From Chloroflexota bacterium (GTDB lineage: Bacteria > Chloroflexota > Anaerolineae > Anaerolineales > Anaerolineaceae): a DNA stretch of 64,000 nucleotides. This document shows positions 54,071 to 54,603 of the stretch, one piece after another. The stretch is taken from positions 248,001-312,000 of the forward strand of contig JAKAFP010000004.1 of the NCBI GenBank assembly GCA_021825925.1. The letters are read 5' to 3'. Under the pieces are notes generated by a model. That model searched no databases. It was not told the DNA's origin and saw nothing but the letters and a program-made list of their open reading frames with translations. Both the position numbers and the translations under genes were made by a program. Every line of letters starts with the position of its first letter. Positions within the stretch are counted from its first letter, which is position 1.

Positions 54071-54107
54071 TAAAAACGACCTCTTCGGAGTGGATAAGAA
54101 GAGGTCG
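54071..54107 (-). terminator. expression-platform terminator of the SAM riboswitch
   Basis: On the minus strand CGACCTCTTC/GAAGAGGTCG with an 11-base loop, then TTTTTA. It lies between the aptamer and metA. With SAM bound, this terminator should form. Confidence 0.88.
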
Positions 54108-54127
54108 ATATACCAAATTCAGATCTC

Positions 54128-54229
54128 CTCTCATCTTCCAGATTGTTCCTGCCGGAGTTGGCACCTTGTTCGTTTGAACAGGTTGTCGAGGCTTCTCAGG
54201 GCCGGTCCCTCTGCCTCTCTGGATAAGAG
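54128..54229 (-). ncRNA. SAM-I (S-box) riboswitch aptamer
   Basis: Minus strand, 102 nt. P1 pairs CTCTTATC (54229-54222) with GATGAGAG (54135-54128). Conserved core strings are GAGGCAGAGGGACCGGCCC, GAAGCCTCGACAACC and AAGGTGCCAACTCC, in S-box order, with the P3 and P4 hairpins between. Followed by an intrinsic terminator and then metA-metY. High SAM should switch the operon off. Confidence 0.96.
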
Positions 54230-54257
54230 CGATACGATATTCAATTTTTATGTCGTT

Positions 54258-54289
54258 TTGTAGGGGAGGTTCATGAACCTCCCTTACAA
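54258..54289. repeat. palindromic repeat copy 1
   Basis: 32-bp hairpin with arms around GGGGAGGTTCA/TGAACCTCCC. Related to the longer element at 61393-61450, which shares GGGGAGGTTCA. It looks like a dispersed REP/MITE-like repeat and lies between the upstream terminator and the SAM aptamer. Confidence 0.6.
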
Positions 54290-54293
54290 TTAG

Positions 54294-54323
54294 AAAAAAG
54301 TCCGGGAGCATTTCCCGGACTTT
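54294..54323 (-). terminator. first-stage terminator in the met leader
   Basis: AAAGTCCGGGA/TCCCGGACTTT stem with a 5-base loop. On the minus strand it is followed by TTTTTT. It lies between the Met-rich leader peptide and the SAM riboswitch, so transcripts starting at the promoter at 54509-54537 must pass two terminators before metA. Confidence 0.85.
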
Positions 54324-54414
54324 CATTTTCTTGGGTCAGCTCCTTGTCTTGCTTTTCAGGAGCTTTACACTTTCTTGATCAGACCGCCTGGATGCAGGCA
54401 TGCCATAGAGTGTG

Positions 54415-54483
54415 TTAAAGCTCCTCGCTTCGGCACATCATGCACATGTCCATCATTCTAGTTACTTCCAGTCGTGTCGTCAT
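54415..54483 (-). CDS. Met-rich leader peptide, 22 aa
   Basis: Minus strand ATG to TAA, reading M-T-T-R-L-E-V-T-R-M-M-D-M-C-M-M, then C-R-S-E-E-L. Six of 22 residues are Met (1, 10, 11, 13, 15, 16) with two Cys. AAGGTGA sits 8 bases before the ATG, and a good promoter 25 bases before that. It precedes alternative RNA pairings and an intrinsic terminator, then the SAM riboswitch and metA-metY. This is the layout of a ribosome-mediated attenuator sensing Met-tRNA charging (inference). Too short for similarity-based calls. Confidence 0.7.
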   Translation of the reverse strand: MTTRLEVTRMMDMCMMCRSEEL

Positions 54484-54508
54484 TTCAATTTCACCTTATT
54501 AGTTGAAA

Positions 54509-54537
54509 ATATTACAACTTTGAAACATCAAAGTCAA
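54509..54537 (-). promoter_or_regulatory. met operon promoter
   Basis: Minus strand TTGACT (54537-54532), 17-bp spacer, TAATAT (54514-54509). Start site expected near 54502, about 455 bp before metA. Confidence 0.8.
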
Positions 54538-54603
54538 GTACCTTGGTGAAATTTTAAGATTAGGAATTGATAAAGTACGGATAGGGTTACAAAGGCTATT
54601 CGA

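Follow-up and report, generated by a model that had tools for sequence, protein, structure and literature searches.

The leader-peptide attenuators of the trp, his, leu and thr operons share a run of codons for the product amino acid, helices that exclude one another and an intrinsic terminator, and in trp-type systems an untranslated leader terminates. Leaders built on Met codons have also been proposed. According to the available part of one article, a MetL leader precedes metBA in Campylobacter jejuni, where attenuation was proposed, and within the Epsilonproteobacteria MetL occurs in C. jejuni, C. coli and C. doylei only (PMC3847290). The accessible portion of another article gives a ribosome-profiling start signal for C. 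jejuni metL and suggests that a Met transporter gene is preceded by a Met-rich frame, MMYQMR (PMC11955535). In Streptomyces lividans, a metL frame lies before metNIQ (PMC8079986, in part). As far as the accessible parts of the surveys extend, no methionine leader was found in Actinobacteria in 2005 (PMC1262725), a 2010 attenuator screen mentioned leader peptides in Proteobacteria and Actinobacteria and, for bacilli, a His leader (PMC2965389), and a 2013 survey was confined to the His, Leu, Thr and Trp attenuators of Rfam (PMC3766115). Arrangements of two sensors in series have been described as well, namely a T-box and SAM riboswitch tandem listed for ssu-type operons of Bacillota (PMC12452182, in part) and the tandem attenuators of Salmonella mgtCBR, in which short translated frames in one leader control transcription (PMC3641672, in part). 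The text of a review of tandem riboswitches contains neither "leader peptide" nor "attenuat" (PMC9481103). Among the matches listed in full-text searches of the open-access literature, which are weak evidence of absence, neither a Met leader in Chloroflexota nor the stacking of a SAM riboswitch with a leader-peptide attenuator was reported.

In this study, we analysed a stretch of 64,000 nucleotides from a Chloroflexota bacterium of the Anaerolineaceae (the window), in which a Met-rich leader precedes a SAM-I riboswitch and the genes metA and metY. Like C. jejuni MetL, whose RNA ends soon past the stop codon, the leader is a short Met-codon frame before a Met biosynthesis operon; unlike it, MetL has 20 codons with 3 Met, belongs to another phylum and, in the part of the article available, is described with neither alternative helices nor a SAM riboswitch. 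The S. lividans frame likewise places Met and Cys codons (CMCRRMC) ahead of a Met gene, but in the accessible text its transcript is leaderless, its operon encodes a transporter and, according to its authors, it is without a typical Rho-independent terminator. With the trp, his, leu and thr attenuators the window shares the codon run, the exclusive helices and the intrinsic terminator, although read-through of an untranslated leader is predicted here for some of the loci, unlike in trp, and the antiterminator, unlike that of classical attenuators, joins the third RNA segment to strands from either side of the terminator loop. The T-box and SAM tandem, in so far as its source was available, also sets a sensor of tRNA charging and a SAM sensor in series, but a T-box binds tRNA directly and requires no translation, whereas a leader frame predicted to be translated is found here. 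The Salmonella case involves other signals in another phylum, and the accessible part of its source makes no mention of a SAM aptamer. Met leaders as a kind are thus already known, as proposals in Campylobacter and Streptomyces, and the leader of the window is a variant of them.

Organization of the locus

The whole arrangement, from promoter to metY, spans positions 54537 to 51713 on the minus strand (Table 1). The original prediction, made from the letters of the window alone, had placed here a promoter, a 22-codon Met-rich frame with a ribosome-binding site and three pairing segments, and all of these are present at the positions given. It had also proposed an intrinsic terminator, then a full S-box aptamer with a terminator of its own, and then metA-metY, an order confirmed by the Rfam model RF00162, by folding and by NCBIfam. 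Because metA scores as the acetyl-forming kind and metY as an O-acetylhomoserine sulfhydrylase, the operon belongs to the direct-sulfhydrylation route.

Table 1. Features of the metA-metY leader region and operon, in window coordinates
Feature	Position	Strand	Basis
Promoter TTGACT-17-TAATAT; presumed source of the leader, both terminators and the operon transcript	54537-54509	-	sequence and sigma-70 consensus scan
SD-like AAGGTG	54497-54492	-	sequence
Leader frame, 22 codons and TAA, MTTRLEVTRMMDMCMMCRSEEL	54483-54415	-	sequence, translation
Met cluster ATG ATG GAC ATG TGC ATG ATG, candidate sensor	54456-54436	-	sequence
Segment 1, AGGAGCTTT, overlapping the leader stop codon	54425-54417	-	sequence, covariation
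Segment 2, AAAGCTCCT, partner of segment 1 or 3	54366-54358	-	sequence, covariation
Segment 3, AGGAGCT, partner of segment 2 or 4	54344-54338	-	sequence, comparison
CCC, inner strand of the composite antiterminator, against GGG 54316-54314	54335-54333	-	comparison
Intrinsic terminator 1, GAAAGTCCGGGA-aatgc-TCCCGGACTTTT; includes AAAGTCCGGGAAATGCTCCCGGACTTT (54323-54297); T run after	54324-54296	-	sequence, comparison
Segment 4, GCTCC, loop and 3' arm of terminator 1, partner of segment 3	54309-54305	-	comparison
Dispersed palindrome AGGGAGGTTCATGAACCTCCC, between the two switches, outside the mechanism	54284-54264	-	genome search
SAM-I (S-box) riboswitch aptamer	54229-54128	-	RF00162, 84.0 bits
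Terminator 2 (S-box switch), stem 54107-54098/54086-54077	54107-54070	-	fold, -15.7 kcal/mol
metA, homoserine O-acetyltransferase	54047-53109	-	NF047918 (MetA_acetyl), 505.9 bits, cut-off 460.5
metY, O-acetylhomoserine sulfhydrylase	53014-51713	-	TIGR01326 (OAH_OAS_sulfhy), 668.3 bits, cut-off 495.1

The consensus scan gave no promoter-like match in the interval between terminator 1 and the aptamer, and a weak one (9/12) inside the leader frame at 54483-54455. The 141 nt from 54430 to 54290 fold with an energy 4.6 SD under that of shuffled sequences, none of 200 shuffles reaching it. The palindrome has eight sites with at most two mismatches in the host genome, that of the window included, against none for the reversed control, and it is missing from the related locus L003.

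The aptamer, which matches RF00162 over model positions 1-108 of 108 at 84.0 bits against a gathering cut-off of 44.4 (E 2.3e-18), is a SAM-I (S-box) riboswitch, with SAM binding predicted from its sequence. Downstream of P1, both the terminator fold and a competing antiterminator fold were found for this switch. Rfam scanning of the whole window at gathering level returned RF00162 only, with no T-box (RF00230) match in the leader, and T-box matches are present elsewhere in the host genome. Among the Rfam leader families (His, Leu, Thr, Trp and others) there was no match up to E 5 in positions 54225-54545, and no Rfam family of any kind matched that interval better than E 0.57. The host has two other SAM switches, before genes that read by eye from their translations as metK and metH, and a Met leader was not found at either of them. 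A second metA of the host (L020, also L153; G000:C2:157-161 kb), 66% identical and followed by a metY-like gene, has its own tandem of leader and SAM switch.

Met-clustered frames upstream of metA and metY

Homologues of metA were collected from 61 relatives, of which 18 gave a match, and from 350 genomes across the order, of which 106 did so at E <= 1e-60, and the DNA was read before metA, or before metY where metY stands first. We examined 84 of the 120 listed places, 80 of which have enough upstream DNA; the stretch inspected was 450 nt. A Met-clustered frame was defined as one with at least 3 Met in 8 codons, the start excluded, and the SAM-I signature as a sequence pattern. Such a frame is found in 23 of the 80 upstream regions, compared with 1.58 expected from dinucleotide-preserving shuffles and 0/80 on the reverse strand. 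In 14 of these 23 the automatic finder detects a terminator downstream of the leader, and further ones were seen by eye. The SAM-I signature occurs in 51 regions; seven carry both elements, 16 the leader alone, 44 the SAM signature alone and 13 neither.

Six of the seven tandem loci are the metA operons found in the window's genus, L001 (that of the window) and L020 being from the same genome; the seventh, L025, belongs to genus g16. All six operons of the genus carry leader and SAM switch (16 genomes were searched; five have the operon, one of them in two copies), L005 ending at a contig end inside the leader. The pairing of Met leader and SAM switch put forward in the original prediction is therefore seen in a second genus as well, while other relatives have just the leader or just the SAM switch before the same genes, which indicates that the two largely substitute for each other. 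The upstream alignment of metA that it had suggested was carried out and revealed that the Met run is conserved, with compensatory changes in the helix of segments 1 and 2 and, more narrowly, in that of segments 2 and 3. The leader frame is kept in L002, L003 and L004, other loci of the layout described below keep the Met cluster with different surrounding residues, and between L001 and L020 the frame downstream of the Met run differs with the cluster kept.

Several members of the group with neither element carry related features. The SAM switch of L013 lies just outside the 450 nt; L121, L124, L129 and L052 have the leader layout by eye, with just two clustered Met; and in L055, L109, L110, L112 and L125 a cysK-like gene stands ahead of metY, with a regulator-like gene further upstream (by eye) in four of these five. 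Neither leader nor SAM switch was found in the inspected upstream DNA of L012, L047 and L049. Among named genomes, seven of 80 loci were flagged (1.2 expected), four of them in Anaerolineae (L154, L155, L158 and L161, the last being the cultured Ornatilinea apprima P3M-1, which has the leader without the SAM switch); the remaining three (L175, L203 and L222) lie in genomes titled as Bacillota-type, a count at about chance level. In L203 (Erysipelotrichaceae NK3D112), a GTG-started frame, MIRKYAAENMRMPMPR, is found just ahead of metA and may be due to chance. A shortage of T-boxes was considered as a cause of the leaders and ruled out, since T-box matches occur in 61 of 61 relatives, 49 of them above the cut-off.

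The four-segment layout and its covariation

The four-segment layout of the window (type A) is common to 13 loci: L001-L005, L020 and L095 (g1); L025 and L076 (g16); L006 (g2); L022 and L023 (g45); and L075 (g46). The spacings are nearly constant, with 60-72 nt between segments 1 and 2, 19-23 nt between 2 and 3 and 32-38 nt between 3 and 4. A sigma-70-type promoter, TTGAC-17-TA (match of at least 9/12, 17-nt spacer), is present in 12 of the 12 readable loci, and the distance from the end of the -10 element to segment 1 is 81-88 nt where upstream DNA is readable (L005 left out). The last Met codon lies 6-18 nt ahead of GGAGC in 11 of 13 loci, those that were scored.

A model built from ten type A loci retrieved three more (L075, L076 and L095) at E <= 2.3e-12. 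The search across the order yielded 31 rows, of which 12 were strong (E <= 2.3e-12) and the other 19 weaker. Fourteen rows were inspected: the three strong ones among them were new, and nine of the 11 weak ones resemble, by eye, ordinary gene-end terminators, the other two (L078 and L080) having Cys/Met leaders. All 12 strong matches fall in family f1, and in the search across the class only the window's own genome matched at E <= 1e-4 (1 of 298 genomes); type A thus seems to be confined to f1. L075 and L076 precede cysK (L076 by TIGR01139 above the cut-off, L075 by eye). At L076 (also L150; G030:C17) the order is leader, cysK, SAM switch and metA, so that a gene separates the two sensors. L095 (G002:C207), an orphan or relocated copy, has the type A leader and terminator and shows no SAM signature; an MFS_2 transporter gene follows about 400 nt downstream.

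Covariation was assessed in an alignment of ten type A loci, with structures drawn from those very sequences, a bias in their favour. Helix 1:2 has double changes at four of 12 pairs, and the stem of terminator 1, whose pairs are 100% kept, at four of seven. The covariation score was reached by 0/500 shuffles and fell from 0.280 to at most 0.103 once the partners were slid; the number of doubly changed pairs was reached by 5/500 shuffles, and the number of pair types is ordinary (121/500), for helix 2:3 likewise not above shuffles. Helix 2:3 has double changes at three of eight pairs, of which 81-110 alone pairs in all ten loci (UA in six, AU in four); 80-111 is unpaired in four of nine and 87-104 in eight of ten. 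The outer part of helix 3:4 displays conservation without covariation, one end pair never forming and the next forming in four of ten loci. Near invariance of the GGAGC and GCUCC cores is expected if each core has two obligatory partners. The exclusive helices are thus backed by covariation, clearly for helix 1:2 and the terminator and, for helix 2:3, mainly at one pair, so that the compensatory changes in the alignment favour the mutual exclusion of 1:2 and 2:3 originally drawn from the window alone, more narrowly for the second helix.

A predicted composite antiterminator

The original prediction had found no clear pairing between segment 3 and the terminator. Such a pairing does exist. In the window, GGAGCugaCCC (54343-54333) pairs with GGGaaauGCUCC (54316-54305): the loop and 3' arm of the terminator supply GCUCC as the partner for the GGAGC of segment 3, and the bases immediately following this segment pair with the terminator 5' arm. 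In relatives, the inner strand changes along with each new terminator arm: CCUGAG:CUCAGG in L022 and L023, CCUGAG:CUCGGG in L006, UUCUCG:CGAGAG in L025, UUCUC:GAGAA in L075 and CUCG:CGAG in L076. The composite antiterminator is the minimum for the stretch from segment 3 to segment 4 in 13 of 13 type A loci. When the linkers were shuffled, p ranged from 0.008 to 0.41 per locus and was 3.4e-4 combined over eight lineages (one value per lineage, the better value being used for two sibling pairs). Within the genus of the window, the CCC:GGG pairing of the inner helix does no better than shuffled linkers in L001-L004 (p 0.30-0.41). Over the full transcript, the terminator is energetically ahead of the antiterminator in 12 of 13 loci.

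Folding with ribosome positions

Type A transcripts were folded to the point where segment 4 has just emerged from the polymerase. When the fold starts at segment 1 and this segment is free, the antiterminator probability is at least 0.91 in ten of 13 loci (L075 0.69, L005 0.25, L006 0.00), and with 22 nt at segment 1 masked it is at most 0.08 in 11 of 13 (L003 0.35, L025 0.76). With the whole leader included, the antiterminator reaches at least 0.97 in ten of 13 when the ribosome stands three codons ahead of the last Met (L075 0.69, L005 0.28, L006 0.00), at least 0.94 in five of 13 when it stands at the last Met, and at least 0.94 in seven of 13 (window 0.946) with no ribosome. A ribosome over segment 1 lowers it to at most 0.18 in nine of 13, among them L005 and L006, which form it at no more than 0.28 in every ribosome state; L022 (0.58), L003 (0.90) and L025 (0.91) keep it, and L020 (0.33) does so partly. 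A clean flip between a ribosome at the Met run and one at segment 1 is obtained with the whole leader in seven of 13 loci (L001, L002, L004, L023, L075, L076 and L095) and without the upstream leader in nine of 13. The window flips both ways; with the whole leader, its antiterminator falls from 0.998 to 0.175 when the ribosome shifts from the Met run to segment 1.

Once the complete terminator is present, the antiterminator is at most 0.002 in 11 of 13 loci (L022 0.07, L023 0.88). The terminator therefore prevails at equilibrium in nearly all loci, and the switch must be kinetic, by trapping. Known attenuators also decide kinetically. According to the toe-print rule, a ribosome protects about 10 nt past the A-site codon; a ribosome with its A site at the last Met would therefore reach about 54426, adjoining segment 1 (54425). 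The stop codon lies 27-48 nt beyond the start of GGAGC in seven of 11 scored loci, so that the covering ribosome would there be passing rather than parked.

Other Met-leader layouts

A different layout, in which the leader tail pairs with the 5' arm of the terminator, precedes metY or metA in genus g17 and in families f8 and f14. The duplex of tail and arm is better than with shuffled tails (p <= 0.05) in 11 of 16 leaders, which were picked because the pairing had been seen by eye. In folds of truncated transcripts, in which masking of the tail abolishes the pairing by construction, the probability of tail:arm pairing is at least 0.99 in 11 of the 15 leaders folded without a ribosome (L051 0.00, L117 0.00, L122 0.18, L123 0.39) and at least 0.89 in 12 of 15 with the ribosome at the last Met (L048 0.05, L051 0.46, L053 0.67). 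The metA gene at L050 (G287:C285) is preceded by a doubled arrangement, in which one Met leader and its terminator are followed by a second such unit.

Met leaders with yet another arrangement are found at L008 and L011. A trp-like reading of these two, in which a 5' segment shields the leader tail, was rejected, as L008 lacks this fold and L011 adopts it in part. L078 (G071:C410) has an MRACLCCMC leader before an SsuA-family gene and a cysK-like frame, and L080 (G065:C57) has an MMACMC leader before a nitrite/sulfite-reductase-like gene; both perhaps point to a wider family of sulfur leaders. The frames MFFSTCCCMSMCA at L017 (G058:C9) and MLLLNASNCMMASHHNGAA at L018 (G045:C340), translated by eye, precede metA homologues with 33-35% identity to that of the window, the one at L017 scoring as MetA_succinyl.

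Discussion

We consider the element to be real, conserved and regulatory; comparison supports the proposed mechanism, and so does folding in the case of the window. The explanation that we regard as probable, given these comparisons and models, is a ribosome-mediated transcription attenuator sensing Met codons, placed in series with a SAM-I riboswitch on one transcript. That the leader is a Met-codon attenuator is very probable, and the alternation of the four segments as drawn is somewhat more doubtful but still favoured. When charged Met-tRNA is scarce, the ribosome would pause in the Met run (54456-54436), just before segment 1 (54425), and leave segment 1 free to pair with segment 2; segment 3 would then join CCC..GGG and GCUCC in the antiterminator, and the RNA polymerase would read through. 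When Met is plentiful, the ribosome would proceed to the stop codon within segment 1 and cover this segment, so that segment 2 would pair with segment 3, the antiterminator would be blocked and terminator 1 would form. Transcripts extending beyond terminator 1 would then meet the SAM switch. Expression of metA-metY is thus likely to require both slow decoding of Met codons and low SAM; Met-tRNA charging as the signal, and the passage of both terminators in vivo, are what the sequence arrangement leads us to infer.

Other readings of the same RNA deserve attention, and the strongest of them concerns the signal. The leader might respond to sulfur amino acids broadly (Cys and Met) or to a general slow-down of translation rather than to Met-tRNA alone. 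Cys codons are interleaved with Met codons in many leaders (MMDMCMMC, MMCMCMC), related leaders stand before cysK (L075 and L076), before the reductase-like gene of L080 and before the SsuA-family gene and cysK-like frame of L078, and CCCMSMC occurs before the MetA_succinyl gene of L017; however, the Met clusters of several metA or metY leaders are free of Cys (MMLMVM in L011, MAMAM in L025, MMPMPGM in L051), and we consider this broader signal unlikely, though it is the rival to be taken most seriously. It is improbable that the leader attenuator is a relic in the window's genus, with regulation by the SAM switch alone. Such a view would agree with the weak inner antiterminator helix of this genus and with the SAM-only relatives, which do without a leader, but the Met run, the segments and the terminator are kept in six of six genus copies, the frame start and promoter in the five uncut ones, and the changes in L005 and L020 leave the terminator and pair 81-110 paired.

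Two further readings concern the nature of the RNA and of the frame. A long stable fold with an invariant GGAGC/GCUCC core might suggest a riboswitch for an unknown ligand, the Met frame being coincidental, yet type A and the layouts in which the leader tail pairs with the terminator arm (L048-L053, L063 and L115-L129) share the Met cluster and the terminator and no RNA core. Because this common denominator of the layouts is the Met cluster and the terminator, codon sensing is favoured over a ligand aptamer, and with the excess of Met-clustered frames (23 against 1.6 expected) and the lack of any Rfam hit below E 0.57 across 54225-54545, we give the ligand little credence. We give still less to the idea that the frame codes for a small protein with a function of its own, such as a Met/Cys metal binder: Met/Cys-rich stretches recall metal-binding peptides, but the non-Met residues, the length and the C-terminal part of the frame vary among relatives, and in the cases inspected the frame precedes a terminator and, mostly, sulfur genes. 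A Met-codon attenuator followed by a SAM-I riboswitch is therefore the reading that we retain.

Beyond the window, we tentatively raise the possibility, from comparison and modelled folds, of an Anaerolineales family of Met-specific leader attenuators, many of them default-on (the antiterminator forms when no ribosome is present), which in one genus is stacked on a SAM riboswitch to form a two-input gate for Met-tRNA and SAM. A new phylum and several RNA layouts would thereby be added to the Met leaders, for which the earlier proposals in the open-access literature searched are those in Campylobacter and Streptomyces only. A translated leader is an awkward sensor of Met because a shortage of Met endangers both the initiation and the elongation of translation. 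Read-through of the untranslated leader is predicted in seven of 13 type A loci and in 11 of 15 of the layout that pairs leader tail and terminator arm, and the antiterminator predicted in such leaders would make the initiation problem harmless. If the default-on behaviour is true, starvation that also hits initiation (fMet-tRNA) would still switch the operon on, and this design would be a solution to the problem behind the rarity of Met sensing by translated leaders. The tandem form, in turn, would separate two pools that need balance, the Met used in protein synthesis and the SAM used in methylation.
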